Shown here: positions 32,762 through 61,983 of the stretch, piece by piece
Position numbering within the stretch: position 1 is the first letter of the stretch
Layout: each line of letters starts with the position of its first letter
Assembly (NCBI GenBank): GCA_030526355.1
Contig: JAUNDC010000014.1
Coordinates: forward strand, 1-64,000
Direction of reading: 5' to 3'
Source: Bacillota bacterium
GTDB taxonomy: Bacteria; Bacillota; Clostridia; Peptostreptococcales; Anaerovoracaceae
Length of the DNA: 64,000 nucleotides
Notes under the pieces: generated by a model
The model's database searches: none
What the model was told of the DNA's origin: nothing
Seen by the model: only the letters and a program-made list of their open reading frames with translations
Made by a program: the position numbers and the translations under genes

Positions 32762-32773
32762 GGAGAGCAAGTG

Positions 32774-36385: not shown

Positions 36386-36397
36386 GGAGGAATGACT

Positions 36398-40500: not shown

Positions 40501-41162
40501 GCATTGCCTATGCAGGCGGTTATTGGGATACCGGCAAGTATGAAAGATTTATTCCGGACGCAGATAACTGTATTCCGATTACCGACGAAGAATACTTTGA
40601 GGACGATATTGTAGGCTTGTTCTGTGCTTGGCTTAAAAAGGTTTATGGAGAGGATAGTCTTGAGCAGAACCTTGATTTTATTGCAAAGGCACTTGGCAAC
40701 AAAGGTGCTACAAGCCGTGAAGTTATCAGAAACTACTTCCTGAATGACTATATAAAAGACCATATCAAGACTTATCAGAAGCGTCCTATTTATTGGCTTT
40801 TCGACAGCGGCAAGCAGAACGGCTTTAAGGCTCTTTGCTATATGCACCGCTGGAATGCCGATACAACCGGCAATATGCGTGTGGAATATCTCCACCGTAT
40901 GCAGCGTGTGTATGAAAAAGAGATTAACCGTATGCAGGAAATCATCGACAACAGCCGAGATAACAAGGAAATCTCAAACGCTACAAAACGCAAAGAGAAA
41001 CTTCAAAAACAAATCAAGGAAACAAAAGATTACGACGCAAAGGTTGCTCATTTGGCTCTTTCTCGTATTGACATTGACCTTGATGACGGCGTAAAGGTCA
41101 ACTATGAAAAAGTGCAAACTGCATCTGACGGAAAGAAAATGCAGATTTTAGCGAAGATTTGA
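37518..41162 (+). CDS. pglX: BREX adenine methyltransferase PglX
   Basis: A 1214-residue N6-adenine methyltransferase. S-adenosylmethionine motif I is DPCMGSGH (334-341) and the catalytic motif IV is NPPY (508-511). The C-terminal half contains the target-recognition region and ends in a helical coiled segment. Length is standard for type 1 PglX. It marks host DNA at a short asymmetric motif and takes part in exclusion of unmarked phage DNA. GGAGGTGCAATATG leads the start, ten bases after the SEFIR gene. Confidence 0.95.
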   Translation: MNKTAIKNFAVWARQKLIDDIKYKAGMLGITENGIAEKLPQSTKDLQFFDIGTKNYAEVSGKEISQRNALIYAIKHKETEGNKFKEAFKYVVEEVAYTWFNRLIAIRFMEVNDYLPSGIRVLSSENKAKNEPDFVTSPFDTDLEFTPYEEDRVVQLKDENKLDELFRMLFIKQCNKLHDILPELFERTDDYTELLLTMSFTDKDGVIYHLTHDIPESNFNVEQEGQVEIIGWLYQYYNSELKDETFAQLKKNVKITKERIPAATQLFTPDWIVRYMVENSLGRLWIEGHPNNSLKNEWKYYLDEAEQEESVIAELEKIRNQYGKINPEEIKVIDPCMGSGHILVYAFDVLMQIYESCGYTQRDAAKSIIMNNIFGLDIDKRAYQLSYFALMMKARQYSRRIFNEDVKPNVFVIEDNTVLTSDAIDYISNGNQKIKADLKSISDDLYNAKEYGSIIEVTPVDFNAIYCRIDEVKQGELDIFSAYIPEQVTPIIRQAEVMAQKYDVVVTNPPYMGNKGFSTKLLDYITNWYYECKIDLFAVFIQKCSSMVNKNGIYSLITPDSWMFLSRFEKLRVPYLSTNTFCTIAHMGFGAFDSGFGTVAFTAIRKDIPMYKSTCLRLVDMPTSSEKEEAYFTSPRIISNKMNYSKVIGNPICYWASQRLIDSFKHKTIKDLGSSCVGLVTGNNENFIRGWYEINYSLFGRNMSREEAISSESLKWFPINQSGDYRKWYGNNVNVFDWWHNGFNIKKFKLDRYLRGEAEKKNSKCWNEESYFHEGLTWSRISTDRFSARYSQLGCTAGTTCPIYFPNVDKEYILGLLNTKVIGTIVAFLNPTVSFQAADIDRIPVIVDQGYLQRVKEIVAQNIYESKKDWDSFETSWDFTEHPLVRLSKDLWDATTVGASMSYYYGGHPKVGSPVELCYMLWQGECNERFNQLKANEEELNRIFIDIYGLQDELTPEVEDKDVTVRKADLQRDIKSLISYAVGCMLGRYSLDTEGIAYAGGYWDTGKYERFIPDADNCIPITDEEYFEDDIVGLFCAWLKKVYGEDSLEQNLDFIAKALGNKGATSREVIRNYFLNDYIKDHIKTYQKRPIYWLFDSGKQNGFKALCYMHRWNADTTGNMRVEYLHRMQRVYEKEINRMQEIIDNSRDNKEISNATKRKEKLQKQIKETKDYDAKVAHLALSRIDIDLDDGVKVNYEKVQTASDGKKMQILAKI

Positions 41163-41173
41163 GGTGTATAGTA

Positions 41174-41707
41174 ATGGGAAATAGTGAAGAAAACAAAACT
41201 GCTAATGAACTATACGCTTATGTAAAAGAGTTTGCACTTCTTAAATTGGAGAACGAAACCAAACGAGAAGATTCTTTAATCCAACAATCTGCTAATATGC
41301 AGACAGCGTTTTCTTTCACAACAGCTGCTCTACTTATGGTAGCTACAATTGCCGCTGAGTATCGTGGAGCAATGTCGCTTGAGTTTTTGCTGTTAGCTTT
41401 TTCAACAATTACAACATTGATGTTAGTTAGTCTTGTGTTCGCTTCGATGGCTCAAAATAGACAATTAAACACTACGTTTCCCGATATCGAAGTTTTTACA
41501 CAGCAAATTGAAGATAAGTATACAGACTATTTGACATCTGCACAAAGAGATAAAGCTATTGCAGAGTTGATTGGAAAAGTTCAAAAAAGTAAAGATGAAA
41601 TAAACGATAAAAGAGTAAAAAGAATTAGATGGTCTATGCGATTTTTTTATTCAGCGTTGGCATTAACGGTTTTTTGGTTTTTTGTTGCTCTTTGCATAAT
41701 GTTTTAA
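41174..41707 (+). CDS. Three-helix membrane protein between pglX and pglZ
   Basis: A 177-residue protein from ATG 41174 (GAGGTG seven bases upstream). Hydrophobic helices cover about residues 41-62 (TAALLMVATIAAEY), 67-92 (LEFLLLAFSTITTLMLVSLV) and 150-175 (YSALALTVFWFFVALCIMF). A soluble helical linker separates the second and third. The layout resembles small effector or SLATT-like membrane proteins that accompany nucleotide-signalling defence systems, but no family could be assigned. It may be an effector partner of the SEFIR protein (inference). Confidence 0.65.
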   Translation: MGNSEENKTANELYAYVKEFALLKLENETKREDSLIQQSANMQTAFSFTTAALLMVATIAAEYRGAMSLEFLLLAFSTITTLMLVSLVFASMAQNRQLNTTFPDIEVFTQQIEDKYTDYLTSAQRDKAIAELIGKVQKSKDEINDKRVKRIRWSMRFFYSALALTVFWFFVALCIMF

Positions 41708-41880: not shown

Positions 41881-41913
41881 GATTTCCGATATAAAATTAG
41901 GAGCGTGAGAATT

Positions 41914-44511
41914 ATGGCAGAACTAAACTTAAAACAGATTACGGACAAATTGAATAGTGAATTTGCAAGCGATGTTCGTAAGCTCGTGTTTTGGTATGAC
42001 GCCAATGCCGAGTTTCAAGAGGATATTGATACCATAGAACTTGAAAATGCGAAGGTTCTGCACCTTGAACCGGATAATCAATTCTACATCAAATACTTCT
42101 TGGAGTGCGGAGATACCACTACAAACTACCTTGTATATGCGCCCTTTCAAAAGCCTGCCATTCGTGAGAATCATCTGGCGGATACAATTAAGTATTCAAA
42201 AGAGTTCTTTGCTGACAAGACTTCTTTAATTGTAGCAAAATTAGGATTTGGAGAACAGTTTAAGCCAGTAATTCATGAGTACATAGATTTCTTTAAAAAG
42301 GCTGATTTGTTAGCTAAATTCAATAATTTACAATTGGATGTTTTGAGTAGAGAAAATATTGAGATTGCAGCAATGTGCGTACTCTGTAAATGTAAAGCGG
42401 TGTCTTTTGAGGAAGTGCTAAGAATTGTGCTCACAAAAATGGACTGCGAAGCAGAAAAGAACAGTTTCCTAAAACTTTTTGAAAAGTATAACTTGCTTGA
42501 TGCATTTTGGAGAATTGTATTTGAGACTTTTGGATATAAGGAAGAATCCACATCTTTAGAAAGCCTGATGTACTCAATGTTTACACTTTACACAGATAGC
42601 TTTATAGGAATTCCTGTTGCATGGGATAATTTCGCTAAAAATATTGTTGCTAGATATACTCGTGATGATGAGGAACTTAAGGCACATCCAGAAAAAGAAA
42701 AAGAAAGCAGAGTATACAAAACTGGAAACTCAATTGCATTCATTGATAATATTATGAATAGTAGTGTATATGGCAAGTGTTTCGATGTAATATCAGACAA
42801 AGTTTGTAGAGTCTTAAGTGTGAATGATCATATACATGGGGAGAATTTAGATAACTGGGTAACATGCGAAGTATATGAACAAATAGATGAAAGAATTATT
42901 TCATTCATTACAGAAAGATTGAGTCTGGAAGACGTATCTATTAAGCTTGCAGATATTAGTATTCCAGAGCTGATTGAGCTCAGAAAGAAGACCCACTTCG
43001 GTAAACGCAAGAATATAGAGTATAACATGTTGGATGCAGCATGGAACATCATATCAAATAGCAAGTACATCAATGATTCCAGCTTGAAAGAAATAATAAA
43101 AAATTACACCGATAGTACATACAAGATGGATATGTGGTATCGCCAATTCTATTATAATTTGGACAAAGTTCAAGATGACTCTGATTTCTATGGGCTTGCA
43201 ACACTAATAGAAAACATTTACACAAACAATTATCTTTCAAAAATCTGTGTTAATTGGAATCAGTATTTTGATGAGGAAATCGACTCAATAGACATTTTAA
43301 AACAGAAAGATTTTTATAACAAACATGTGCGGAATGAAAAGAACCAATTGGTTGTAATCATTTCGGATGCATTAAGATATGAAGTGGGAGTTGCTCTTTA
43401 TGAGAAATTACTTGCAGACAAAAGATGTACAACAAAAATAATGCCTATGGTAAGTACACTGCCGTCGATTACTGAATACGGTATGGCAGCGTTATTACCA
43501 CATAGAAACCTCGAGTTGACAGATGACTATAAGGTTTTAGTAGATGGCGTTGCTGCGAAATCAACAAAACAGCGACAGGAAATTTTACAATCAGTAAAAG
43601 TAAATAGTAAGTGCTTCAATTTCGATGAAATTGCATCATTAAACGTATCTGACATTAAAGCATTGTTCAAAGATCAGGATGTTGTGTACATATATCATAA
43701 TCAGATTGATGCAAGAGGAGATAAACTGTCCACTGAAAATGAAGTCTTTGAAGCATGTGAAGAAGCCATTAACGAAATATCCAAGTTGATTGATAAGAAA
43801 CTGATTAGTGCGAGCAAAAAGCACATTATTATAACAGCGGATCATGGATTCTTGTATAAGAGGGAACGACTTGCAGAAAGCGATAAAATCAGCGCACTAG
43901 CAAATACAAATGCTTCTGTAGCAAGAAGATACGCTTTAGATAATGATGATCTGGTACTGGATGGCGTAAAAAGTGTGGGACTTAGCCATGTAATGAAGAT
44001 AAATGATGCCCGTAAAGTGTCTTATCCTGTAGGTTCAGACATATTTAAGGCACCAGGCTCTGGACAGAACTATGTACATGGTGGATCATCACCACAGGAA
44101 ATGATAATTCCGGTAATAGATGTCATTACCGAAAGAGGTGCAATAAAAACAACGAATGCAGAGCTTGCGTTGGTAAGCTTATCTACTAGAATAACAAACC
44201 TGATTACATCACTAGATTTTGTGCAGACAGAACCTGTAAGCGATATTGTCAAGGAAACTTCTTATCGTATTTGCTTCATCTCTGAAAATGGAGTACCAAT
44301 TTCAAATGAGCAGATTTGTGTTGTAGATAAAAAGGATGCAGATTCAACTAAGCGAATGTATAGATTGAGATTCAACTTCAAGAATCAGCAATATAACAAA
44401 TCTCAGAAATATTATTTGGTCGCTTATGATGAAAAGACTTCACTGGAAGTTATGCGCCATGAAGTAATAATGGATATAGCATTTGCAGATGATTTTGGGT
44501 TTGGATTTTAA
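41914..44511 (+). CDS. pglZ: BREX phosphatase-like protein PglZ
   Basis: An 865-residue protein of the alkaline-phosphatase superfamily. The N-terminal domain starts DVRKLVFWYDANAEFQEDID, typical of type 1 PglZ. Metal-site motifs are VVIISDALRYEVG (Asp485), STLPSITEYGMAALLPH and IITADHGFLYKRE (Asp643-His-Gly). A C-terminal beta domain follows. ATG 41914 is preceded by TAGGAGCGTGAGAATT. PglZ is the signature gene of BREX. Confidence 0.95.
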   Translation: MAELNLKQITDKLNSEFASDVRKLVFWYDANAEFQEDIDTIELENAKVLHLEPDNQFYIKYFLECGDTTTNYLVYAPFQKPAIRENHLADTIKYSKEFFADKTSLIVAKLGFGEQFKPVIHEYIDFFKKADLLAKFNNLQLDVLSRENIEIAAMCVLCKCKAVSFEEVLRIVLTKMDCEAEKNSFLKLFEKYNLLDAFWRIVFETFGYKEESTSLESLMYSMFTLYTDSFIGIPVAWDNFAKNIVARYTRDDEELKAHPEKEKESRVYKTGNSIAFIDNIMNSSVYGKCFDVISDKVCRVLSVNDHIHGENLDNWVTCEVYEQIDERIISFITERLSLEDVSIKLADISIPELIELRKKTHFGKRKNIEYNMLDAAWNIISNSKYINDSSLKEIIKNYTDSTYKMDMWYRQFYYNLDKVQDDSDFYGLATLIENIYTNNYLSKICVNWNQYFDEEIDSIDILKQKDFYNKHVRNEKNQLVVIISDALRYEVGVALYEKLLADKRCTTKIMPMVSTLPSITEYGMAALLPHRNLELTDDYKVLVDGVAAKSTKQRQEILQSVKVNSKCFNFDEIASLNVSDIKALFKDQDVVYIYHNQIDARGDKLSTENEVFEACEEAINEISKLIDKKLISASKKHIIITADHGFLYKRERLAESDKISALANTNASVARRYALDNDDLVLDGVKSVGLSHVMKINDARKVSYPVGSDIFKAPGSGQNYVHGGSSPQEMIIPVIDVITERGAIKTTNAELALVSLSTRITNLITSLDFVQTEPVSDIVKETSYRICFISENGVPISNEQICVVDKKDADSTKRMYRLRFNFKNQQYNKSQKYYLVAYDEKTSLEVMRHEVIMDIAFADDFGFGF

Positions 44512-44528: not shown

Positions 44529-46586
44529 ATGGACGAGTTCAAGGAAATGGAAAATACCCGTGAGGTAATTAAAAATAAATTGCGCCAGCATTTTGATGGG
44601 CGTATTGTTCGTAAGGATTTGACTAAACACATTAAAGAAGGTGCAAATGTACCAGTATATGTTTTGGAATTTCTTCTTGGTCAGTATTGCAGCTCTGATG
44701 ATGAAGATATAATTAATGATGGTGTAGATAATGTAAAGCGGATCTTAGCAGATAACTTTGTAAGACCTGATGAGGCACAGAAGGTACTTGCTATGCTTAG
44801 AGAAAGAGGCTCATATACTGTAATTGACAGGCTTACTGTAACATTAAACATTAAGCAGGATAGATATGAAGCGGAATTTGCCAATTTAGGATTAAAAGGT
44901 ATCCCTATTCATCCGGATTATCCATCTCAGTTTGACAGATTATTATGTGGCGGTATTTGGTGCATACTGCAGTTGGAATATGAGTTCATTGAAGAAGATA
45001 AAAAAGCCAGCCCAATTCGTATCAATAAACTGACTCCTATTCAGATGCCTAATATTGACATGGATGAAATAAAAACAGGCCGAAAAGAATTCAGTAAAGA
45101 TGAGTGGATTGACATCTTACTTCGTTCTACAGGGATGGAACCTGACCGCCTGACAGAACGTCAGAAATGGCTGTTAATCGCAAGAATGATTCCTCTCGTA
45201 GAGAACAACTTTAACCTTTGTGAATTGGGCCCTAGAAGTACAGGCAAATCTCATATTTACAAAGAAATTTCCCCAAACAGTATCTTGGTCTCCGGTGGAC
45301 AAACTACAGTTGCTAATCTGTTCTACAATATGGCAAGCAAGACAGTAGGTCTTGTAGGTATGTGGGACTGTGTTGCTTTCGATGAAGTAGCCGGCATTAC
45401 ATTTAAAGACAAAGATGGTGTGCAGATAATGAAAGACTATATGGCATCCGGTTCTTTTGCGAGAGGAAAGACAGAAGTTGCTGCATCTGCATCAATGGTA
45501 TTTGTAGGTAATATAAATCAGAGTGTCGATGTCCTGCTGAAGAACTCACACCTATTTGATCCATTCCCATATGTAATGGCATATGATACTGCTTTTTTAG
45601 ACCGAATGCATTGCTATATTCCAGGATGGGAAGTACCTAAATATAGACCGGACTTCTTTACTGATGACTATGGATTCATTACAGACTACATAGCCGAATT
45701 CATGAGAGAAATGAGGAAAGAATCCTTCAGTGATGCTTTCGATAAGTTTTTCAAATTGGGCTCCAACTTGAATCAGAGAGATACTATCGCTGTCAGAAAG
45801 ATGGTATCAGGATTTACAAAGCTTATTTATCCAGATGGAGATTATACAAAAGAAGATATTGAAGAAATCTTGAAAATCTCTTTGGAAATGAGACGTAGGG
45901 TTAAGGAACAGCTGAAGAAAATTGGTGGAATGGAATTCTACGATATTAATTTCTCGTACATAGATGGAGAAACTTTTGAGGAACATTTTGTTTCTGTTCC
46001 CGAACAGAATAGCGACAGCTTAATCCCACAGGGAATGGCAAAACCTGGCGAGGTATATACTATTTCAAGAGGTAAATCTGGAATGGTTGGAGTATATAAG
46101 CTGGATGCACAGATGATGGCCGGTAATGGTAAGTTTAAAACTGTTGGTCTAGTGAATCCAGATGTGAAAAACGCTGCAGGCTTAGCACTTACATATTTAA
46201 AAGCTAACGGCAATTCTATAAGCCAGCAGATAAGCACAACTCTGAAGGATTATGTTGTAGACTATAGAGATTTAAACGGAATAGGCATGACAGAAAAGCT
46301 TACATTACCTACACTGATATCTCTATGTTCTGAGGCATTAGGAAAACCAGTCGTAAGCAGCTTAGCTGTATTAGGTGAAATTACTATTGCTGGTACTATT
46401 CTTCAAGTAGATGAGCTTGCAAATGTACTTCAGGTATGTCTGGACAGCGGGGCTAAGAAAGTACTGATGCCTATTACTTCTGCTCAAGATTTTGGCAAAT
46501 TGCCAAGTGATTTATTAGGAAGTCTGGATATTATTTTCTATCAGACTCCGCAGGATGCAGTATTTAAAGCTCTCGGTGTAGAGTAA
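44529..46586 (+). CDS. brxL: BREX Lon-like protein BrxL
   Basis: A 685-residue AAA+ protein. An N-terminal domain (LRQHFDGRIVRKDLTKHIKE, GANVPVYVLEFLLGQYC) precedes Walker A GPRSTGKS (234-241) and Walker B CVAFDEVAGITF. The C-terminal Lon-like domain ends with IAGTILQVDELANVLQVCLD and IIFYQTPQDAVFKALGV. In studied systems BrxL forms a DNA-binding barrel. It completes the canonical type 1 set (A, B, C, X, Z, L), but the operon continues. Confidence 0.94.
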   Translation: MDEFKEMENTREVIKNKLRQHFDGRIVRKDLTKHIKEGANVPVYVLEFLLGQYCSSDDEDIINDGVDNVKRILADNFVRPDEAQKVLAMLRERGSYTVIDRLTVTLNIKQDRYEAEFANLGLKGIPIHPDYPSQFDRLLCGGIWCILQLEYEFIEEDKKASPIRINKLTPIQMPNIDMDEIKTGRKEFSKDEWIDILLRSTGMEPDRLTERQKWLLIARMIPLVENNFNLCELGPRSTGKSHIYKEISPNSILVSGGQTTVANLFYNMASKTVGLVGMWDCVAFDEVAGITFKDKDGVQIMKDYMASGSFARGKTEVAASASMVFVGNINQSVDVLLKNSHLFDPFPYVMAYDTAFLDRMHCYIPGWEVPKYRPDFFTDDYGFITDYIAEFMREMRKESFSDAFDKFFKLGSNLNQRDTIAVRKMVSGFTKLIYPDGDYTKEDIEEILKISLEMRRRVKEQLKKIGGMEFYDINFSYIDGETFEEHFVSVPEQNSDSLIPQGMAKPGEVYTISRGKSGMVGVYKLDAQMMAGNGKFKTVGLVNPDVKNAAGLALTYLKANGNSISQQISTTLKDYVVDYRDLNGIGMTEKLTLPTLISLCSEALGKPVVSSLAVLGEITIAGTILQVDELANVLQVCLDSGAKKVLMPITSAQDFGKLPSDLLGSLDIIFYQTPQDAVFKALGVE

Positions 46587-46601: not shown

Positions 46602-47675
46602 ATGTTCAAGACTAAGTTTACAAACATGCTAAGGCAGTATCCAAAGTGTTTGGAGAATAAAACGGTCTTTGCATCATATATGAAGGATCTGTTTCCGGAA
46701 GAGAAGCTGATGACACATATTCTTACATCACTAATTGAAGTTGGGATAATCGATGAGATTAGATCTTCAGCAGATTTGGATATGGCCTTTTCATTCAGAT
46801 ATACGAAGAACTTAGTCGAGAACTTTGGCTATAACGAGGAAAAGGCAAATGATGCCGTATATATCTGGTGTGACTGTTACGGTAGAGAAATTTTAGGAAA
46901 ACAGTGTAGTTTCAAACCTGCAAAGCCTAAAGAAAATAGCAGTGGGGAAAAAGGAAAACTGTATCAAGACTTGTTTCAGTATCGCGTATTTGGCGAAAAG
47001 GGTATTGTAACCGGGTGTTCGGATCAAGCTGCAAAGACTTTGGTAATACCAAATAAAGTAAGTATAGCAAGGTTAAATGTAATTGACGAAGCAGCTTTTC
47101 GTGGAATGAATTCTCTTGAGCAGGTGGTTATTACTAATGGATATACTGAAATAGGGAAGTCTGCTTTTGCAGAATGTTCAAACCTAAAACAGATTATATT
47201 ACCTTATAGTATTAATTCGATTGGTGAAGAAGCATTTAGTAATTGCAAATGCTTAGACACATTGAATATACCAGAGAGTACTTTTTCTATTGGACGTTAT
47301 GCTTTATCCTCAACAGCAATCAAGGAATTTAAATTCCCTGTATCTGTTGTTACTGCAGGAAAGGGATTGTTCAAAGATTGCAGAAAATTATCAAAGGTAG
47401 TTTTTAATAACTCTCAAACGGAAATACCTGACGAAATGTTTTGGGGCTGTGAGAACTTAAAACATATAAAAATTCCGGAGAATATTAAAATGATTGGGAA
47501 CATGGCATTTGCGGAGTGCAAAAGCCTAATACAATTATCAATTCCGGATAGTGTTATAGAGATAGCCGATCAAGCTTTTGCAGATGCTTCTGAAGATTTG
47601 GTTATCATCTGCAGCATGGGAAGTGAAGCAGAGAGATTTGCAAGAAGCAAGCGAATAAAGTATCAGCTTATGTAG
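46602..47675 (+). CDS. Leucine-rich-repeat (BspA-like) cytoplasmic protein
   Basis: A 357-residue protein with no signal peptide. Residues 1-100 form a helical domain (MLRQYPKCLENKTVFASYMK, VENFGYNEEKANDAVYIWCD) seen by analogy in phosphosignalling neighbourhoods. Residues about 150-345 hold eight or so BspA-type LRR_5 repeats: EAAFRGMNSLEQVVI, KSAFAECSNLKQIIL, EEAFSNCKCLDTLNI and similar, each with A-F-x-x-C-x-x-L. These repeats are usually on secreted proteins, so use inside a defence operon is odd; a recognition or scaffold role is inference. Confidence 0.78.
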   Translation: MFKTKFTNMLRQYPKCLENKTVFASYMKDLFPEEKLMTHILTSLIEVGIIDEIRSSADLDMAFSFRYTKNLVENFGYNEEKANDAVYIWCDCYGREILGKQCSFKPAKPKENSSGEKGKLYQDLFQYRVFGEKGIVTGCSDQAAKTLVIPNKVSIARLNVIDEAAFRGMNSLEQVVITNGYTEIGKSAFAECSNLKQIILPYSINSIGEEAFSNCKCLDTLNIPESTFSIGRYALSSTAIKEFKFPVSVVTAGKGLFKDCRKLSKVVFNNSQTEIPDEMFWGCENLKHIKIPENIKMIGNMAFAECKSLIQLSIPDSVIEIADQAFADASEDLVIICSMGSEAERFARSKRIKYQLM

Positions 47676-47687
47676 GAGGTGACTTGT

Positions 47688-48197
47688 ATGGGATTTTTAG
47701 ATTGGCTGTTTGGCCAACCAAAACCTAATTATCCAGTAATTCCATCTAAAATGGCACAAGTGGATAAAGATATGATTTTTAAGGGAAAGCTGCCTTCTAT
47801 AGATACTGATGAAATATATCTCCAGAAAGGTGAAGTTTGTTACTATGCAGACAATGCCCGTTTGATGAGTGAGAAAATTGTTAAAGACTATATTAACAGA
47901 TACTGGGGTAGTTCTGTACCAGGACTATTTCAGGGATCTAGATGGGGTGGAGGCGTTAGTGATAGAAAGCAAGTAGGCCAACACGTAGAACAGGACTACT
48001 TTGATGGAACATTGTTTGTAACAAATAAAAGAACGATTTTCATCGAAAAATTTGCAGGGTTTGATAAAAGACATACTTCAATATCTGCAATCGAGTCATA
48101 TTCAAATGCGATACAGATACAGTATGGTTCTAAATCCTACTGCATATTTGTGCCGGATGGATATTTACTCAATGATTTATATGAGATGTTGCATTGA
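47688..48197 (+). CDS. Bacterial PH-domain protein
   Basis: A 169-residue protein from ATG 47688 (TAGGAGGTGACTTGT). It begins MGFLDWLFGQPKPNYPV, a short amphipathic lead. Residues about 100-169 form a PH-like fold: GTLFVTNKRTIFIEKFAGFD, then HTSISAIESYSNAIQIQYGS and a C-terminal capping helix (LLNDLYEMLH), matching the bacterial PH_3-type pattern. Such domains bind lipids or partner proteins. It sits directly before the kinase, suggesting an adapter. Confidence 0.7.
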   Translation: MGFLDWLFGQPKPNYPVIPSKMAQVDKDMIFKGKLPSIDTDEIYLQKGEVCYYADNARLMSEKIVKDYINRYWGSSVPGLFQGSRWGGGVSDRKQVGQHVEQDYFDGTLFVTNKRTIFIEKFAGFDKRHTSISAIESYSNAIQIQYGSKSYCIFVPDGYLLNDLYEMLH

Positions 48198-48209: not shown

Positions 48210-49520
48210 ATGAAAGAAGAATTATCTATAGGAAGACAATTTAAATCGGTTAGTGGAAATACATATAAGGTCTTAGAGTTGCTAGGAGAAGGTGGACAAG
48301 GATTTGTTTATGAAGTTGAACTTTATGGTCAGAAATATGCCTTGAAATGGTATAAGAGGAATACTGCTAGAAAAGAACAGAAACAAATCATAGAGAATTT
48401 ACTACAAAAGCCAAAGCCATCAGAAGCATTTCTATGGCCATTAGATATGATTGAAGCAAATGGCTCATTTGGCTATATTATGCCCCTTAGACCAAAGAGA
48501 TTTAAGGATATTCCAGCGTTGTTAAGTAGACGTGTAGAACCTTCATTTAGAACTTTATGTATGATAGGTTTTAACCTAGTAACAGCGTATAGAAAGCTTC
48601 ATGCAAGTGGATATAGCTACTGTGATATAAATTTTGGCAATGTATTCTTTGATCCTGATACAGGAGAGGTTTTGATATGCGATAACGATAATGTGACGGT
48701 AGACGGCATGGAGCAAAGCCAAGTTATGGGAACATTAGGATTTATGGCACCAGAGCTTGTGATGGCAAATGTAAACGGAACTGATGAGAGGCCGGCAACA
48801 TCAACAGATTTGTTCTCGTTAGCCGTATTACTGTTCTACTTATTTATGATGCATCATCCTTTACATGGAGCAAAAGAAGATGCTATCCGATGCTTTGATT
48901 ATAATGCACAGGTTAAACTGTACGGAAAAGAGCCCGTGTTCATCTTTGATCCAAATGATAAGTCAAACAAGGCTTTAAGAGGTGTGCATGACAATGCAAT
49001 TATTTTCTGGAGCTTATATCCGGATTATTTGAAGAAGTTATTCGTAAAAGCATTTACAGAGGGAATGACAAATCCAAATCGAAGAGTGCAAGAAGTAGAA
49101 TGGCAAAACGCATTTACCCAAATGCTAAACAGTATTATTATCTGTCCTGATTGTGGAGCTGAAAATTTCTACATAGAAAAGAAGAAAGAACAGATGGTTA
49201 GCCATATATGCTGGGGATGTGATAAAACATTAAGTCTTCCGGTCAGCATCGTAATCGACAATAAACGAATACTTCTTAATTCAGATACTGTAATTTCAGA
49301 GCACAATCTCAAAGGTAACTATAATATTTTAACGCAGGTAGCCTCAGTTGTGCAGAACCCAAAGAATCCAAACATTTGGGGATTAAGAAATGAAAGTAAT
49401 GATATATGGGTGTATGTCAAACCGGATAATACACAGATAAATGTACCAAGCGGTAAGTCTGCAACGATTGCAAAAGGTTGCAAAATAAAATTTGGACAAG
49501 TTGAAGGATACTTTGAGTAG
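48210..49520 (+). CDS. Ser/Thr protein kinase of a TerY-P-type triad
   Basis: A 436-residue kinase. The glycine loop is LGEGGQGFVYEV, Lys46 is the ATP-binding Lys, the catalytic loop is YCDINFGN (Asp139, Asn144) and the metal-binding Asp lies in ICDNDN (Asp158, in place of DFG); GTLGFMAPE is the APE motif. After the kinase domain comes a zinc ribbon (ICPDCGAEN ... ICWGCDKT, about 310-345) and a C-terminal beta domain, possibly FHA-like. It is followed by vWA and PP2C genes, the known TerY-P triad. It is far shorter than PglW and has no NERD domain, so it is not PglW. Confidence 0.9.
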   Translation: MKEELSIGRQFKSVSGNTYKVLELLGEGGQGFVYEVELYGQKYALKWYKRNTARKEQKQIIENLLQKPKPSEAFLWPLDMIEANGSFGYIMPLRPKRFKDIPALLSRRVEPSFRTLCMIGFNLVTAYRKLHASGYSYCDINFGNVFFDPDTGEVLICDNDNVTVDGMEQSQVMGTLGFMAPELVMANVNGTDERPATSTDLFSLAVLLFYLFMMHHPLHGAKEDAIRCFDYNAQVKLYGKEPVFIFDPNDKSNKALRGVHDNAIIFWSLYPDYLKKLFVKAFTEGMTNPNRRVQEVEWQNAFTQMLNSIIICPDCGAENFYIEKKKEQMVSHICWGCDKTLSLPVSIVIDNKRILLNSDTVISEHNLKGNYNILTQVASVVQNPKNPNIWGLRNESNDIWVYVKPDNTQINVPSGKSATIAKGCKIKFGQVEGYFE

Positions 49521-49538
49521 TAAGAGGAGGATGAAATC

Positions 49539-50252
49539 ATGACAGAAAGAAAAAGACCGGGTGGAGCAGTAGCTAGTAGACCGTTACATTTCTTTTGGGT
49601 AGTAGACTGTTCAGGATCAATGATGGGAGATAAAATCGCTACTGCAAACTTTGCAATTAAAGATGCAATTCCAGGAATGCGTTCTGCAGCAGAAGAAAAT
49701 CCAAATGCGCAGTTGCTAATTCGAACTTTACGTTTTGAAACTGGAGCACAGTGGATTACACCAGAACCTATTCCTGTTGATGAATTTGAATGGGAACCAT
49801 TAGAAATTGGTGGATTGACTTCAATGGGAATGGCCTTTGATATGATAGCAGATCAATTAGAAATGCCACCGATGTCAGAAAAAGCATTACCTCCTGTTAT
49901 TGTACTGTTATCAGACGGAAATCCTACTGACGATTATAAAGAAGGATTAGTTAGACTTTTAAACCTGCCTTGGGGTAGAAAAGCAGTACGTATTGCCATT
50001 GCTATTGGTCAGGATGTTGATACAAATATTTTAGAAGAATTCACTAGAAATAAAGAATTGGTGCTGCAGGCTAATAATGCAGATCAGCTTGCTAAAATGA
50101 TAAAATGGGCATCTACTGTGGCAAAGCAGGTTTCTTCTCCAGTAAGTAGAGCAACAAAAGTAGAAGATACTGAAGATGGCAGTGCAGCTGTTCCACAGAT
50201 TGTTGATGTGGATAATATTCCGGATGTAGATGATTCGGATGATGTTTGGTAA
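49539..50252 (+). CDS. terY: TerY-type von Willebrand A protein
   Basis: A 237-residue vWA protein. The MIDAS site is complete: WVVDCSGSMMG (Asp23, Ser25, Ser27), GGLTSMG for the Thr, and LSDGNPTDD for the second Asp. The fold covers residues about 15-195; the C-terminus is acidic. TerY-like proteins act with a kinase and PP2C phosphatase in Ter-linked stress and defence modules. GAGGAGG precedes the start. Confidence 0.88.
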   Translation: MTERKRPGGAVASRPLHFFWVVDCSGSMMGDKIATANFAIKDAIPGMRSAAEENPNAQLLIRTLRFETGAQWITPEPIPVDEFEWEPLEIGGLTSMGMAFDMIADQLEMPPMSEKALPPVIVLLSDGNPTDDYKEGLVRLLNLPWGRKAVRIAIAIGQDVDTNILEEFTRNKELVLQANNADQLAKMIKWASTVAKQVSSPVSRATKVEDTEDGSAAVPQIVDVDNIPDVDDSDDVW

Positions 50253-50263
50253 AGGTGTATAAA

Positions 50264-51115
50264 ATGACAAGTAAGGTTTTTGCCAAAAGCGTGCAAGGTG
50301 CTTCTCATATTAGGCAGAATAAAATTTGTCAGGATAGTAATTATTGGTGCAAGAACTTAGAAAATGCAGTTGTACTGGCTGTTGCAGACGGGCATGGATC
50401 AGAAAGTTGTATTTTCAGTCATGAAGGGGCGTATAGAGCTGTACATGTTTTCTGCGACATAATGCAGGAAATAATTACTCAAGAAGGGTTTGAAGAAGCT
50501 ACATTAAAGTCATTGGTGGACGACAATAAATTGCTAGCTAAGAGAATAACATCACTATGGCGAAAGAGAGTTGCACGTAAGCATAGAATAGAACATAGAG
50601 GAAAAGCTGATTCGGATTTAGCACCTAAAAAAAGGACATCTATAAGCAATGTAATTAAAAAAGCTAACAAATCGAATGTTGATTACATGTTATATGGAAC
50701 AACTTTGCTGGGAGTTGCATTGGTTGACAAGCTAGCACTAGTATATCAACTGGGTGACGGTGATATACAGTTGATTACTAAAGATAGAGTTCAGCCATTA
50801 GTTGCTGCAGATAAGTTTTTAGGAGTAGAAACATATTCATTATCCAACGATATGTCCTGGAACTATGCAAAGGTTTCAGTGATTGATTTAACAGACTTAA
50901 ATGAACCTTTTTTGATTATGCTTTCAACTGATGGGCTGTCAAATAGTTATATCAATACTACAGAGTTCACCAAATGCTGTAAAGATTATTTGGCAATAAT
51001 TCAAGAAGAAGGTTTTGATTACATAAAAGCGAATCTGGCAGAATGGCTTAGAGATACGAGTGATAACGGTTGTGGAGACGACGTAACCATTGCGTTAGCG
51101 TATTTTGAGGGTTAA
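50264..51115 (+). CDS. PP2C-type Ser/Thr phosphatase
   Basis: A 283-residue PP2C-family phosphatase. HIRQNKICQDSNYW and AVADGHGSES (Asp42-Gly-His-Gly) form the first metal site, LVYQLGDGDI the central motif, IMLSTDGLSNS the third and GCGDDVTIALAYF the last Asp pair. It would reverse the neighbouring kinase. I chose ATG 50264 with AAAGGTG upstream; a TTG at 50246 overlaps the vWA gene. A basic insertion (about 95-120) is specific to this protein. Confidence 0.88.
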   Translation: MTSKVFAKSVQGASHIRQNKICQDSNYWCKNLENAVVLAVADGHGSESCIFSHEGAYRAVHVFCDIMQEIITQEGFEEATLKSLVDDNKLLAKRITSLWRKRVARKHRIEHRGKADSDLAPKKRTSISNVIKKANKSNVDYMLYGTTLLGVALVDKLALVYQLGDGDIQLITKDRVQPLVAADKFLGVETYSLSNDMSWNYAKVSVIDLTDLNEPFLIMLSTDGLSNSYINTTEFTKCCKDYLAIIQEEGFDYIKANLAEWLRDTSDNGCGDDVTIALAYFEG

Positions 51116-51129: not shown

Positions 51130-52170
51130 ATGATTGCAGACAGATATTATTACAACAAGCTTTCAACTAAGGAAAAGCAGATATATAAAGATTTTTATAC
51201 GGGCTTGAAAAATTGTGCATCTGTGATTAAGACTGCAACTGTTTTAAATCCGGAAAAAGCTATGGATAGAATATTCAAGGCTATCATTAATGACAACCCA
51301 CATATCTATTATGTGGATCAGACAAAAATGGCGTATCAATATTCTGTTCATGAGATTGAGATACATCCTGCATATATATTTCCTAAATCTCAGATAGCAT
51401 CATTAAATCAGCGATTTGAAGATAAGGCCAATGATATCCTAAGCACAGTAATTACAACATCAAAGAACAATGAACTGAGCAAGGAAACTGCTTTGTATGA
51501 GTATTTTGCTCGCAATTTTTCATATGATGCGACTGCATTGAAAGCCACTGACCCGATTGAATTATGTAGAGCACATTCTTTATTAGGTGTTTTTCTGGAT
51601 GGAAGCGCTGTTTGTGAAGGTTTTGCAAAGGCATTTAAGTTCCTGATGAATGCAATGGATATGAAATGCATAGTTATTTCTGGGTATGCTGATTGGGATT
51701 ACGAAAGCAAACATGCATGGAATATAGTAAAAATTAACGATAAATCTTATCATGTAGATGTTACTTGGGCTATAAGTGACAGACGAAAAGATTTGGTTTG
51801 GTACGATTATTTGAATGTGTCTGATAAGACTATTTCTATAGATCACAGCGGATTTTCCGGTGTGCCTAAATGTAATAATGATGATCTTGATTATTTTTTA
51901 AATGTTGCACCGCAAATTGACAATATGATTTATTTGAAAAATCATATTAGAGAATGTATTAAAAACAGAGAGCCTTCAACAACTTTTAAATTGTTGAAAG
52001 GAAAAGAGAAACATGGAATCAAAGATTTATCTCAAGGTTTATATTTGATTCAGGAGGCCGCTCAGAAAGCACAACTTGAAGCTGCTGGAGTAGGTTTCAA
52101 AATGGATATGTATGAGCGAAAACAGAGACATAACTATGTAGTATTTTTTGAGTATAACCAGGAGAGCTAG
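51130..52170 (+). CDS. Transglutaminase-like cysteine peptidase-fold protein
   Basis: A 346-residue protein without a signal peptide. The catalytic triad of the transglutaminase-like fold is intact: SAVCEGFAKAF (Cys162), KHAWNIVKI (His195) and YHVDVTWAIS (Asp210). N-terminal (1-110) and C-terminal (260-346) parts are helical. Cytoplasmic members may act as proteases or deamidases/cross-linkers. It lies between the PP2C phosphatase and the TerB-like protein; a role as an activated effector is inference. Confidence 0.82.
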   Translation: MIADRYYYNKLSTKEKQIYKDFYTGLKNCASVIKTATVLNPEKAMDRIFKAIINDNPHIYYVDQTKMAYQYSVHEIEIHPAYIFPKSQIASLNQRFEDKANDILSTVITTSKNNELSKETALYEYFARNFSYDATALKATDPIELCRAHSLLGVFLDGSAVCEGFAKAFKFLMNAMDMKCIVISGYADWDYESKHAWNIVKINDKSYHVDVTWAISDRRKDLVWYDYLNVSDKTISIDHSGFSGVPKCNNDDLDYFLNVAPQIDNMIYLKNHIRECIKNREPSTTFKLLKGKEKHGIKDLSQGLYLIQEAAQKAQLEAAGVGFKMDMYERKQRHNYVVFFEYNQES

Positions 52171-52173: not shown

Positions 52174-55100
52174 ATGCTGAAATCATGGCAGGAAGTAGAA
52201 AAACGATATAGTGAATTAAAGCCTACATCTAGAGCAGCAAAGAACCTGAAGGTTTGGGGAGAAATTTTTGCATCTGCATATAAATTAGATCCAAATAGGG
52301 CGAATGAACTATGGCAAAACTTAATTGAACTAAATATAGAAAACGATAAAACCTATGCAAAATACTTTGTGGCACAAATTTTTAATAAAATAATAGATCA
52401 CCTAAATGTTCCGGATTCCGTGGACTTCATATTCATGAATCGTAAGCGAGTAACTCTACTATTTTTATATGGGTATAGTGGAGGTGCTCACTATTTTTTT
52501 GAAAAGTACATTTTAGCTAGGCTTTTTATTGATAATAGACTAGATTTGATTTTAGACGTGTTCCAATTAATTTGTGCAAAAAATACTGGTGAAAAGGATA
52601 AGAACTTTTGTGATAATGTCAGCGTATGCAGTAGTTTCCTTTCTGCAATAGACGATTTGCTGCCGCCTAAAGAAATAACGTGTTTTAGAAATAATAAGGA
52701 ATTTGAAAGTTTTAAGGATAATTATTTAATAAATTTTAATCATGTATATGGTTATTTTGAGCGTTGTTATCCTGAATCTCTAATAACAAAATTGACATAT
52801 ATAAAAAAATTGATTATTTCAGGAAACGTCGAAGAAGATCAAGACTTGGCAGAAGAATTGCTTTTATTATGCAAGAATTATAATCGCGATTTGTTTGAGG
52901 ACTTTCTGTTCCATGAACGTAGTACTATTTCCAGAGATAAAATAAAAAAGTATTTATTAGAATACTGTGAGGAAACAGGATCATTGTCAGTGGAATCTTC
53001 TGAAAATGATTCTTATTTTGATAGAAAAAAGAAGAAATGGTATAGAAAATTGTTATATGAAAATGAGGAAATCAGACAAAGCCTTTTATTGAGACCATAT
53101 GGTTGGTTGCATGATGATGAAATCGACTATTTAGATTCATTGATACTTAACAATAAATTACAAGAATGGATTTCTCTCTTGACTTCAATGATTTTGAATG
53201 GTGATCATAGTTATAGTTCTTCTTGTATAAGATATGTTGAAAGTTGCTTTAAGGAAGTACGAACTCCTAAAAGAATTAATCATGGTTGGTTTACGATTAC
53301 CACAAGCTATGGAAGAGATAGTAAGTTAACTAAATTAACAGATAAGGAAAAAGAAGATTTTGCAATTGTAGCAGCAATTCTAAGCTATGCTACGCAACAA
53401 ACTGATGAACATAATCGTATTTGCAATTCGGCAATAGAATTTATAGATGAAATAGAGAGTATAAACGCATTACTAAATAAAGCCGGTGAAGTTTATGAAC
53501 TAGAAAGTAGTAAAGATAGATTAAACAAAGTCGGAGAGTTGTTTTTAAATCAGTTACCAGACCTTAAAGAAGACATTAATAAAAAAAGATATGCAAAGGA
53601 ACAATCTTTAGAAAAAGAGGAAGCAGAAAGGCAACAAGAATTTGAAGAGTGGTCTAGTGATTTATATGAGTGTTTGAAATATAGTTCTCCATACAAAATT
53701 AATACGAGCTCTTTCTTAAAACAAAAAAATGTGTTAGTGCATTATGAAGCAATTATAAATAATGTAATTAAAGAAACACAACAATATCTTGAAGGGAAAG
53801 GCATTGATATAAAAGATTATATTTGTAATAAAACAGGCGTAAGACCTGTTCATCTTACAGATGAAATTGGAGAAATAATCCGAGATACAAATATGATCGT
53901 GCCACTGAATGATGAAGATTTTGCAAAATTTGTAATCAAACGCACAGAAGGTTTGTTGCGTAAGAAAATGAAGTACAATAGTATCAAACTGCCAGAAATA
54001 CCGCATGAGAATGTAGTAGCGAAGTATTTTTCTTTTCCAAGCGGCAGCAAAGGATATTATAGATGCATAAATGAAACTGATCAACCGGCTTTAATTAAAT
54101 ATGGACGTACAGTTTATGAAGATATTCAAGATATTATAATTAAGAATGTAGATAACTATTGTAAGATACATAATCTTGAGGTTGTTGATATTCCTGAGGA
54201 CAAAATGGCTCCGAAGAAGACTATTATAGATGACATTATGGATATTATTAAAGCTGGGTTATCTGCGGAAATAACGTTTAATAAGATTATTTCAATATAC
54301 AATAATACAACTGCTTCAAACAAAAAACAGAGATGCAAAACTGTTGCTTCAATTGCATGGAACTACTGGGTGTTACATAGTGATAGTATTCAAGGCGTTA
54401 ATTATAAATACTTTGTTGAAACTTTTGAGAATAAAAAGTGGGATTTGCATGAAAAGTATGCTGTTATAGTAGGAGATTATCAAAATGCAATTGATTATTT
54501 TACAGAATATCAAAGCATATATTCTAACGAATTTACAAAAGAAGATTATATAAGAATTAAAAACTGTGTAGTAGTGACATTACATGCCATAGCATTGTTA
54601 TGTGAAAAGCAGGGAATCAATTTCTTAGAATTGTTTTTAGGAAAATGGGAACCTCAACCGTGGGATATCCTTTCTTTTACACATGAGTCTTTGACAATTG
54701 AGATTCCTAAAATTAGAACAAATATAGGAGATGTTGTAATTTATGACACAAAAGAAAAACCAAGAATTGAAACTTACATAACTTCCGATGCACAGATCGA
54801 AATGATTAAATATGTGTTGAAGACAATAACTAATACGTATTGTGAAGTACATGAGTTGTCCATAAAACATAAAAGCATTGATTCGATTGAAAATTTGTTC
54901 ACATTTGAAGGATATCATGAGTTGGTTAAATCTTTGCCAGATTTAATACATTTTGCAACAACTTATGCAGCAACAAGCGATGATATGATTTGTTATGGAG
55001 ATTGTATAGAATCAGTTAAAGTTTGCGATTCAGAGTATCACTTAGAGTTAGTAAAATCAGTTGATAAAAAAGTTGATATTCAGGAAATTGTAAAACTGGC

Positions 55101-56793
55101 ATATTATAAGTCTTTTGGAAAAGAATTTGCAAATGTAATGCCGGTACAAAAGAGATACGAGTATTTTACAATAGATTATAATACTGCAAATCTAACTGAT
55201 TATTTTGAAGAAAAAATGGTATCAGAGGAAGTCTTTGTTCAAGAGCAATATAAGCAACTTGTAAACTACTTTTATGATTCATATGACACATATTGTGATT
55301 ATATGGAGAAGATTCTTGAGCATCCGATAGTGTATGATCCAAGCTTTTCATACGTTGGCTCAAAACTAAATAAAGATGGAAAAGGATTTGTGGGGAAGGA
55401 TTTATATCAGTTACCATTAATTGCAGATGATGGGAGAGATTTTATTCAATGGGTAGCTCGAATTCAGGAAGGCACAATTATATTCCCGAAATTCAAACCA
55501 TATATTCCAATTCTCTTTTATTACATTATTAATGGAGGCCTTTTCTCGGATAGAAGAGAAATGGGTTTAGTTGTAATGTGTAAAATGTGGAATTATTATT
55601 TCGAAAAGTTTCAAAAAAATGATCGCAATTTACTGTTAGGATGGATTAAGGATTACTGGATGATATATTGTCCAGAGATACAATTAAATGATTTTAAAAA
55701 ATTGTTTAATAGAAAGATTGCATTTGTTAATGAACCTACAATAGATGTGGTAAATGCTCCAAATGCATTAGATTACTATAATGAGGCATGTTTTTATAAA
55801 GTTTTACATGGGAAACTTATAAAAGAAGGGCACAGGGAAATCTTTGAAACTGCGATGAAGATAATAAATTCAAAGATTTCAGAGTTATGGGAAGCCAAAG
55901 GTTTATCTTATTATGATATGTTATATAAAGCCGCAGGACGCAATACGTATACGTTTATGAGGGCCGTTATAACGAAAGATAATTTATATAGAATTTATTC
56001 TAATACGGGAGAGCGTATAATCTCTAATATAGAGAGCTATGCGCTTGCAGAAAATGAAACTACCTTAAGATTACAGTGGGAATTTAAAGATCAGTATTAT
56101 GATGCAGAGTTTATTAAAGCATTTATGGAATATACTCTTAAATTGACCGAATACTGGTTTAGAAAGTGGTTGGGATATAGTGTAAGCAATAGCTTTAACG
56201 TGGACGCAAGTAGTATCTATAGGTTAAAGCAAAAAAATCATATTGTGCAGGAAATCATTGAGGATAATAAAAAGAACAATCAAATTGAAAGAATTATATA
56301 TGACACGGTAGTGGATGTTTGTACAAACTATAATATCCCTAGAAATGGTGATATTGAGGAGTTCACAGTATTCTTAAATAAAGACATACTTATTATAGAG
56401 GATGAGCTAGACTATGAAGGAATAGATCCAGCACAGAAAGTTACAAGAAGTGCACTTGAAGAAGCGAGAAAAACACTATTGAAGAATCAAAGCAAACTCG
56501 TTATAGAAGATGAATTTGTAGACGAAACTATTGACTCAAAAGAAGATGATGATTCTACATTTAATGAAATAGAAAAGGCTCTTTTATGTATTTTGCTTTA
56601 TAGTGATGATGTTCAGATAGAATTGCAAAATCTTATTTTGCAAAAAATAATACCTTCTGTAATCATTAATAAGATTAATGAAAAAGCTATGGACGTTTTA
56701 GGAGACGTTGTGATTGATGAGAGTCAAAATCCGCCAGAAATATTTGAGGATTATATTGACTTTTGTAAAGAGGTGACAGAAATTGATGAATGA
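52174..56793 (+). CDS. Giant TerB-N/TerB-C-like protein
   Basis: A 1539-residue, largely helical, AT-rich gene product. The N-terminal 1000 residues show no family I can name; a charged coiled coil lies near 460-500. The segment with GRDFIQWVARIQEGTIIFPK, then KPYIPILFYYIINGGLFSDR and LLGWIKDYWMIYC (about residues 1085-1175) resembles the TerB-N domain. The C-terminus, KVTRSALEEARKTLLKNQSK through QKIIPSVIINKINEKAMDVL and IFEDYIDFCKEV, resembles TerB-C. In known Ter-associated DNA-processing loci such proteins sit next to a DUF2791 ATPase, exactly as here. The TerB assignments are by pattern only. Confidence 0.66.
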   Translation: MLKSWQEVEKRYSELKPTSRAAKNLKVWGEIFASAYKLDPNRANELWQNLIELNIENDKTYAKYFVAQIFNKIIDHLNVPDSVDFIFMNRKRVTLLFLYGYSGGAHYFFEKYILARLFIDNRLDLILDVFQLICAKNTGEKDKNFCDNVSVCSSFLSAIDDLLPPKEITCFRNNKEFESFKDNYLINFNHVYGYFERCYPESLITKLTYIKKLIISGNVEEDQDLAEELLLLCKNYNRDLFEDFLFHERSTISRDKIKKYLLEYCEETGSLSVESSENDSYFDRKKKKWYRKLLYENEEIRQSLLLRPYGWLHDDEIDYLDSLILNNKLQEWISLLTSMILNGDHSYSSSCIRYVESCFKEVRTPKRINHGWFTITTSYGRDSKLTKLTDKEKEDFAIVAAILSYATQQTDEHNRICNSAIEFIDEIESINALLNKAGEVYELESSKDRLNKVGELFLNQLPDLKEDINKKRYAKEQSLEKEEAERQQEFEEWSSDLYECLKYSSPYKINTSSFLKQKNVLVHYEAIINNVIKETQQYLEGKGIDIKDYICNKTGVRPVHLTDEIGEIIRDTNMIVPLNDEDFAKFVIKRTEGLLRKKMKYNSIKLPEIPHENVVAKYFSFPSGSKGYYRCINETDQPALIKYGRTVYEDIQDIIIKNVDNYCKIHNLEVVDIPEDKMAPKKTIIDDIMDIIKAGLSAEITFNKIISIYNNTTASNKKQRCKTVASIAWNYWVLHSDSIQGVNYKYFVETFENKKWDLHEKYAVIVGDYQNAIDYFTEYQSIYSNEFTKEDYIRIKNCVVVTLHAIALLCEKQGINFLELFLGKWEPQPWDILSFTHESLTIEIPKIRTNIGDVVIYDTKEKPRIETYITSDAQIEMIKYVLKTITNTYCEVHELSIKHKSIDSIENLFTFEGYHELVKSLPDLIHFATTYAATSDDMICYGDCIESVKVCDSEYHLELVKSVDKKVDIQEIVKLAYYKSFGKEFANVMPVQKRYEYFTIDYNTANLTDYFEEKMVSEEVFVQEQYKQLVNYFYDSYDTYCDYMEKILEHPIVYDPSFSYVGSKLNKDGKGFVGKDLYQLPLIADDGRDFIQWVARIQEGTIIFPKFKPYIPILFYYIINGGLFSDRREMGLVVMCKMWNYYFEKFQKNDRNLLLGWIKDYWMIYCPEIQLNDFKKLFNRKIAFVNEPTIDVVNAPNALDYYNEACFYKVLHGKLIKEGHREIFETAMKIINSKISELWEAKGLSYYDMLYKAAGRNTYTFMRAVITKDNLYRIYSNTGERIISNIESYALAENETTLRLQWEFKDQYYDAEFIKAFMEYTLKLTEYWFRKWLGYSVSNSFNVDASSIYRLKQKNHIVQEIIEDNKKNNQIERIIYDTVVDVCTNYNIPRNGDIEEFTVFLNKDILIIEDELDYEGIDPAQKVTRSALEEARKTLLKNQSKLVIEDEFVDETIDSKEDDDSTFNEIEKALLCILLYSDDVQIELQNLILQKIIPSVIINKINEKAMDVLGDVVIDESQNPPEIFEDYIDFCKEVTEIDE

Positions 56794-58093
56794 TATGAAA
56801 GTGCCAAAAAGAATAGCAACGACAATAATCAATTCGTTACAAGGCGGTGTTGTTCCTCCCAATGGGTTAGGGTATATCGCAGTTGGTAGAGAGCAGGAAA
56901 TCGATGCGTTATTAAAAGATCTAGAAATTATTGAAGATGGCGGATCTACTTTTAGATTAGTAACAGGACACTATGGAAGTGGAAAGACATTTTTACTTCA
57001 AACAATTAAAGAACATGCCATTGCAAAAGGTTATGTTGTTGCTTTTGCTGATTTATCGCCAGTTAGAAGTTTGATTGGCTCCCACATTAATAAGAAAGGT
57101 CTTGCTACTTATAGGGAGCTCATGTGTAATTTATGTATAAAATCTAGCCCTACTGGTGCTGCATTAGATAAGATTTTGGACGGCTGGTTAAATCAAGTCT
57201 GGATGGATATTGCAATGTCCGTTCCTAGTGGTGCAATCGCCGGTGATATGCTCGAAGAACAAGTTAATTCTAAAATTAGTGAAGTTATACGAGGAATGCA
57301 TGAAATGGTTCGTGGCTTCGACTTCGCAAATGTATTAACAATGTATTGGAAGGCGTCCAGAAGTAATGACGAAGTAATGAAAGCTAGGGCACTACAATGG
57401 TTAAGAGGAGAATACATAACCAAAAAAGATGCGAAGGCTGATCTTGGTGTACCGAATATAATAAATGATGATGACTGGTTTGATTATATCAAATTATTCT
57501 CGGTTCTTTTTAAACGCATTGGCTATAAGGGGTTTATTATCGCGATTGACGAGCTAATTAACATATATAAATGTGCTAATACTGTTACGCGCCAGAGGAA
57601 TTATGAGAAGATGTTGTCTATGTATAATGACGCATTACAGGGACGTGCTAAGCATTTAGGCATAATAATGGGAGGAACACCCCAGAGTGTAGAAAGCAAA
57701 ACGAGGGGAGTATTCAGTTACGAGGCGCTTAGGTCACGTTTAGAGTCCGGAAGTTTTGATGATCCGGATATTATAAACCTAATGGCTCCAATTATTAGAA
57801 TAAAACAATTAACTAAAAGCGAACTGATTGTTTTGTTGGAAAAATTGACTAGTATTCATGCTGATTTATATAAATATGATGTAATGGTTAGCTTAGAGGA
57901 TATTGTGTATTTTGTAGATCAGGTGTTTGAAAAGAATACTGATAGATATATAACGCCTAGAAGCATAATTAGAGATTATATTGATATCATGAATATAATG
58001 ATGCAGAATCGAACATTTAGTATTAGACACATTGTTGACAGCTATAAATGGAATGATGATAAAGAGGAAGACATTGTAGATATCATGGATTAA
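56786..58093 (+). CDS. brxD: BrxD-like (DUF2791) ATP-binding protein
   Basis: A 435-residue P-loop ATPase. Walker A is GHYGSGKT (61-68), Walker B is GFIIAIDELINIY, and GIIMGGTPQSVES is a sensor segment; the N-terminal RIATTIINSLQGGVVPPNGL and VGREQEIDALL are typical of BrxD/DUF2791. In type 2 and type 6 BREX it works with the helicase BrxHI, which is absent here. The start overlaps the giant gene by eight bases (ATG 56786, GAGGTGA upstream; TTG 56783 is an alternative). Confidence 0.88.
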   Translation: MNDMKVPKRIATTIINSLQGGVVPPNGLGYIAVGREQEIDALLKDLEIIEDGGSTFRLVTGHYGSGKTFLLQTIKEHAIAKGYVVAFADLSPVRSLIGSHINKKGLATYRELMCNLCIKSSPTGAALDKILDGWLNQVWMDIAMSVPSGAIAGDMLEEQVNSKISEVIRGMHEMVRGFDFANVLTMYWKASRSNDEVMKARALQWLRGEYITKKDAKADLGVPNIINDDDWFDYIKLFSVLFKRIGYKGFIIAIDELINIYKCANTVTRQRNYEKMLSMYNDALQGRAKHLGIIMGGTPQSVESKTRGVFSYEALRSRLESGSFDDPDIINLMAPIIRIKQLTKSELIVLLEKLTSIHADLYKYDVMVSLEDIVYFVDQVFEKNTDRYITPRSIIRDYIDIMNIMMQNRTFSIRHIVDSYKWNDDKEEDIVDIMD

Positions 58094-61232: not shown

Positions 61233-61263
61233 AAGCTGGGGAAATACTTCCTCAGCTTCTTTT
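61233..61263 (+). terminator. Strong terminator ending the defence operon
   Basis: AAGCTGGGGAA pairs with TTCCTCAGCTT (11 bp, one G-T pair) around ATAC and is followed by CTTTT. It is the only strong terminator seen between 30480 and 61300. Confidence 0.85.
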
Positions 61264-61957: not shown

Positions 61958-61983
61958 AATTTTGCAGTAAGGGGGCGGTTGAA

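Follow-up and report, generated by a model that had tools for sequence, protein, structure and literature searches.

The TerY-P triad, an already described module that is often found alone, comprises a kinase with a zinc ribbon, a TerY-like vWA protein and a PP2C phosphatase (PMC11090510). P. aeruginosa was protected by a stand-alone TerY-P system, with most cells surviving (PMC10889362), and restriction systems other than BREX are also tied to TerY-P (PMC11090510). In CoCoNuT type II/III-A superoperons, which are long gene arrays, TerY-P is joined with DNA restriction systems that include BREX (PMC11090510). According to the main text of a survey of BREX diversity, PglW holds a Ser/Thr kinase and an alpha-CTD in one protein, and kinases are of the PglW type (and the like in DndF) or occur as a histidine-kinase fusion; TerY, TerB, PP2C and Shango are absent from that main text (PMC12839542). 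Although CoCoNuT superoperons joining TerY-P to restriction systems such as BREX are already known, the coupling of TerY-P to type 1 BREX looks unreported in the searchable literature.

The window, a stretch of 64,000 nucleotides from a contig of a Bacillota bacterium of the family Anaerovoracaceae, carries such a coupling in a long run of genes, whose features are as follows.

30605-31585, + strand: WYL-domain transcriptional regulator, first gene of the operon (Pfam WYL, E 1.1e-11), overlapping BrxA by 8 bp
31578-32180, + strand: BrxA (Pfam BrxA, E 1.6e-56)
32183-32761, + strand: BrxB (PADLOC BrxB, E 1.6e-74)
32771-36385, + strand: BrxC ATPase (PADLOC BrxC, E 0, 1478 bits)
36392-37507, + strand: bSEFIR/TIR-like effector between brxC and pglX (PADLOC bSEFIR, E 2e-57)
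37518-41162, + strand: PglX methyltransferase (PADLOC PglX, E 0)
41159-41707, + strand: small, probably membrane, protein between pglX and pglZ (relative in L153)
41905-44511, + strand: PglZ (PADLOC PglZ, E 2.8e-266)
44529-46586, + strand: BrxL, last BREX core gene (Pfam BrxL_ATPase, E 5.2e-147; PADLOC BrxL, E 0)
46602-47675, + strand: LRR (BspA-type) protein, putative triad adaptor (LRR_5, E 8.6e-52; syntenic relatives in L006 and L067)
47679-48197, + strand: PH/GRAM-like protein, putative triad adaptor (adjoins TerY-P kinases in five genomes, the window included)
48210-49520, + strand: TerY-P kinase with zinc ribbon and C-terminal beta domain (436 aa; Pfam Pkinase, E 2.7e-16; conserved motifs; model)
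49539-50252, + strand: TerY-like vWA protein with complete MIDAS (237 aa; Pfam VWA, E 1.2e-6; alignment; match to plasmid TerY-C-type genes)
50246-51115, + strand: PP2C phosphatase (289 aa; Pfam PP2C_2, E 2.3e-33; alignment)
51130-52170, + strand: transglutaminase-like protein, recurrent TerY-P neighbour (Transglut_core, E 5.1e-10; relatives in L136, L140 and L143)
52174-56793, + strand: large TerB_C protein with SngA-like C-terminus (TerB_C, E 6.4e-7; PADLOC SngA, E 2.6e-16 over residues 1110-1533)
56783-58093, + strand: SngB-type ATPase (Shango; BrxD-related; PADLOC SngB, E 6e-154, versus BrxD, 6e-46)
58131-61184, + strand: last gene, protein with RNA polymerase alpha-CTD domains and TPR/Sel1 repeats (RNA_pol_A_CTD, E 1.7e-55, three stretches)
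61233-61258, + strand: terminator-like hairpin closing the operon (11-bp stem and T-rich tail)

Pfam and PADLOC analyses revealed a complete type 1 BREX locus, with the six core genes in the order brxA-B-C-pglX-pglZ-brxL. The genes from the WYL regulator to the alpha-CTD protein (30605-61184) are co-directional and separated by small gaps, the sole wide one (197 bp) preceding PglZ. From BrxL to the alpha-CTD gene the gaps range from -11 to 37 bp: 15 bp before the LRR gene, 3 bp before the PH-like gene, 12 bp before the kinase, 18 bp before the vWA gene, an overlap at PP2C (its start at 50246 versus the vWA end at 50252), 14 bp before the transglutaminase-like gene, 3 bp before the TerB_C gene, an overlap at SngB and 37 bp before the alpha-CTD gene. 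The run ends at the hairpin, and a promoter-like site follows at 61281, ahead of a LexA-like gene; since the scan gave 11 terminator-like sites versus 7.6 expected, the argument rests on position and not on count. Internal promoters may exist within the run. The triad had been placed within BREX by the preliminary description; it belongs to the same gene run, but lies 3' of the last BREX gene.

Compared with an ordinary type 1 BREX, this run adds the bSEFIR effector, the small membrane protein, the triad and a Shango-like tail. The bSEFIR effector, a stand-alone defence protein, is inserted between brxC and pglX, and the small protein at 41159-41707, whose relative in L153 (57% identity) occupies the same position in a BREX locus of another family, is perhaps an unrecognised BREX accessory. 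Conjugation-type genes were read from the translations upstream of the operon, which is therefore probably the cargo of an integrative element. Immediately 3' of the operon (61355-63231) are a LexA-like S24 regulator and a UmuC/DinB-type polymerase, which are probably also on the mobile element.

The three genes at 48210-51115 encode a zinc-ribbon kinase, a vWA protein and a PP2C phosphatase, as the preliminary description had observed, and the complete motifs it had read in them were confirmed by alignment. In the kinase (20 sequences), the glycine loop (G26/G28/G29/G31), K46, D139, D158, D160, N161 and the P-E of APE are invariant, and N144 is kept in 19. Y-C-D stands in place of HRD and D-N-D in place of DFG; because the Asp residues of both motifs are invariant in the 20 relatives, the alignment identifies these replacements as a family signature and not as decay. 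The zinc-ribbon cysteines C312/C315/C334/C337 are likewise conserved, one of them being replaced in one relative. The MIDAS residues of the vWA protein (D23-x-S25-x-S27, T94 and D126) are invariant in 15 sequences, as are D30, DGHG (48-51), GDGD (170-173), D229 and D278-D279 of PP2C in 10. The AlphaFold model of the kinase showed a kinase fold (VIA, Z about 18) followed by the zinc ribbon and a confidently predicted C-terminal beta domain. A PDB sequence search with this beta domain gave no match; an FHA identity, guessed from its pattern, was set aside, the structure comparison having covered mainly the kinase domain. PDB sequence searches with PP2C, its alignment and the TerB_C protein also gave no matches. 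The C-terminal tail of the vWA protein (mostly D-V-W) is conserved in the alignment of TerY-P relatives, and ends in W in the window protein as in most of them; it is likely to be a docking peptide.

This gene set is a canonical TerY-P triad: a kinase fused to a zinc ribbon, a TerY-like vWA protein with MIDAS and an adjacent PP2C. None of PADLOC, PHROGs and NCBIfam labelled the three genes as TerY-P, and the Pfam content of the kinase is Pkinase plus a sub-threshold FTA2 only; the name was therefore given on the basis of the domains present, the conserved motifs and the TerY matches, the vWA protein matching plasmid TerY-C-domain vWA genes at 28-30% (tblastn). The first scan of viral contigs with the vWA protein gave no matches. 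The locus shares with described TerY-P systems the three components in one operon, their conserved motifs and the association with restriction systems (PMC11090510, PMC4978471, PMC10889362), but differs in lacking TerY-C and ter genes, in having LRR, PH-like and transglutaminase partners and in lying directly 3' of type 1 BREX. In contrast to CoCoNuT superoperons, no McrBC/CnuB, CnuC, CnuE or CnuH-like gene was recognised in it.

Type 1 BREX has no PglW, and the earlier proposal that the short kinase takes the position of PglW did not hold. The locus is of type 1 (BrxA, BrxB and BrxL are present), and the kinase protein has neither the NERD domain and tandem kinase domains of PglW nor a PglW match in PADLOC or NCBIfam; a PglW replacement was rejected on these grounds. 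The locus resembles type 2 BREX in containing both a Ser/Thr kinase and an alpha-CTD domain, but the two are in separate genes, NERD and BrxHI are missing and BrxL is present. No helicase was found among the operon genes scanned, and the ATPase is a much stronger match to SngB than to BrxD. The one protein that matches PglW is that with the alpha-CTD, and the match is confined to this domain.

The preliminary description had also named PH and LRR adapters ahead of the kinase. The LRR assignment is firm, while that of PH is weak: the window protein scores below the Pfam threshold, five relatives gave bPH_3 (4/5) and GRAM (2/5) matches that were all sub-threshold, and its predicted structure has a pLDDT of 34. 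Similar genes also adjoin TerY-P triads outside BREX (LRR in L136, transglutaminase-like in L136, L140 and L143, PH in L125), and the LRR, PH-like and transglutaminase genes of the window therefore most likely belong to the triad and not to BREX. On plasmids, no relative of the PH-like or the TerB_C protein was found.

Downstream of these partners, the locus shares with Shango (SngABC; PMC10250203) a TerB_C protein and an SngB ATPase encoded by adjacent, overlapping genes. It differs in that SngA is enlarged (1539 aa, with the SngA match in the C-terminal third only) and the SngC DEAD/DEAH helicase is absent, SngB being followed by the alpha-CTD/TPR protein and the hairpin. SngB was not found in genomes G411, G373, G344 and G242, and this Shango-like tail is particular to the window. 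Thirteen close SngB relatives elsewhere are in neighbourhoods without the triad, mostly between genes of SngA size and helicase size, and look like members of three-gene sngABC loci. The best alpha-CTD domain of the last protein is about 64-67% identical to apparent RpoA CTDs of related genomes, and the protein may act as a decoy or tether for RNA polymerase-targeting factors of phages. The alpha-CTD matches in related genomes were rejected as its relatives, as they are frames of about 315 aa that look like RNA polymerase alpha subunits.

In four further genomes or contigs, comparative analysis showed BrxL followed by the triad or, where the contig is cut, by the kinase.

L006, Anaerotignum sp. 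RGIG4617 (G411), 4.9-kb contig: BrxL fragment-LRR-PH-kinase-vWA-PP2C, 51-83% identical
L067, another genus of the family (G373): BrxA-BrxC-PglX-PglZ-[three extra genes]-BrxL-LRR-PH-kinase-vWA-PP2C
L142 (G344), 3-kb contig: divergent BrxL-NifS-PH-kinase, the contig ending inside the kinase
L183/L184, a pair of IMG/VR contigs sharing one kinase: L183 reads BrxC-PglX-PglZ-BrxL(PLD)-TerY_C-kinase-vWA-PP2C

The genomes of L006 and L142 yielded no PglZ. The BrxL-NifS pair of L142 was considered as type 4 BREX but is assigned to no type here, since a similar divergent BrxL adjoins PglX and PglZ in L163, where a predicted 1199-aa fusion of two BrxL-type ATPases lies beside them (7352-10951). In L067 (6783-14299), the three genes between PglZ and BrxL were read from the sequence as encoding a 1377-aa protein, an ATPase of the Sacsin/NO VEIN type and a protein of 381 aa whose start resembles TerB; the 1377-aa protein shares the N-terminal 108 residues of the window TerB_C protein (38%).

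Triads without BREX were found in Butyrivibrio (L007), in other Bacillota (L010, L013 and L016), on a plasmid of Methylomonas (L021) and in numerous genomes of the order to which the window belongs (most of L126-L144), and a Prevotella plasmid (L020) carries a BREX-free triad closely related to that of L183. In the kinase trees, BREX-linked members fall into separate well-supported groups, each with BREX-free relatives: the window and L006 with L007, L067 and L142 with L125, and L183 with L020 and L182. On the branches with strong support, the BREX label must have changed at least three times, so that the triad would have joined behind BrxL at least three separate times if each change is a gain; alternatively, there could have been fewer gains and some losses, with the triad always 3' of BrxL. 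The independent recruitment of a phosphorylation module to BREX proposed in the preliminary description was thus borne out, as a recurrent event apart from type 2 BREX and PglW. No triad lay near any of about 34 other clostridial BrxL loci examined, some of which are truncated by contig ends; BREX therefore does not require the triad, and the coupling is optional and rare. Among 394 genomes drawn from the order, the kinase was present in 32 and a BrxL-like protein in 29. The chance of the observed kinase-BrxL neighbourhoods was about 1e-7 for 3/32 and about 4e-5 for 2, values that assume random placement, count the window and ignore the clustering of defence genes, and that show only that the proximity is far from random. 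General clustering of defence genes inflates this proximity. The recurrent pairing in these sequences suggests that the BREX and triad defences work together.

The best explanation, to which we assign a probability of roughly 0.6, is that a modular TerY-P phospho-switch, added 3' of a complete type 1 BREX operon, shares its transcript and provides a second, inducible layer of defence, not a substitute for PglW. The sequence shows three conserved enzymes or binders set close together in a co-directional gene run up to a terminator-like hairpin, and the comparison shows that the triad occurs without BREX and recurs behind BrxL. Anti-phage activity, which we presume here, is known for other TerY-P systems (PMC10889362).

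The triad might instead control BREX directly, with the kinase phosphorylating BrxL, PglZ or another BREX protein to switch between methylation and restriction and PP2C resetting it. Its position right behind BrxL in separate lineages, with no more than one to three small genes intervening, agrees with this, as does the L067 BrxL, which is 81% identical to that of the window when LRR and PH are only 36-40% identical. We nevertheless regard it as unlikely: L145, L146, L160, L200 and L201 have a 75-80% identical BrxL and no adjacent triad, and the coupled loci carry BrxL of different types (with Lon-C in the window, with a PLD C-terminus in L183, divergent in L142), which makes one shared phospho-site unlikely and direct control less likely than action on effectors of the triad's own cassette.

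A service limited to the Shango-like tail and the alpha-CTD protein, with BREX merely an upstream neighbour in a mobile-element defence island, would fit the TerB_C and SngB genes closely 3' of the triad and the conceptual network that unites TerY and TerB domains, a Ter link having been noted for Shango (PMC10250203). This appears improbable, however, as both L006 and L067 have the BrxL-LRR-PH-triad arrangement in genomes without a detected SngB, and the 13 close SngB relatives have no triad in their neighbourhoods. An ordinary stress or tellurite module without a phage-defence role, carried on a conjugative element, is very improbable; TerY and its kinase are found in ter clusters (L017 and L136), but no TerD was found anywhere in the window's genome, and the tight operon with defence genes and the recurrent BREX linkage argue against it.

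Under the phospho-switch explanation, PP2C would keep the system off in uninfected cells, and infection would tip the switch on through the LRR and PH-like proteins, which may help the kinase to detect infection or its site. The vWA protein would hold kinase and substrate together. If phage replication continued, the kinase would first phosphorylate partners from the same operon, namely the LRR/PH, transglutaminase-like and SngA/B-like proteins, and possibly BREX proteins too, so that phage replication would be blocked or the cell stopped.

The field still asks what sets BREX in motion and what holds it back. Tentatively, and with considerable doubt, TerY-P-gated BREX may be a recurrently evolved variant in which reversible phosphorylation and LRR/PH sensors decide when BREX or the attached effectors act, a convergent type 1 analogue of the supposed role of PglW. 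If a kinase-phosphatase pair has repeatedly been joined to type 1 BREX, the role of phosphorylation would become addressable by single catalytic mutants.
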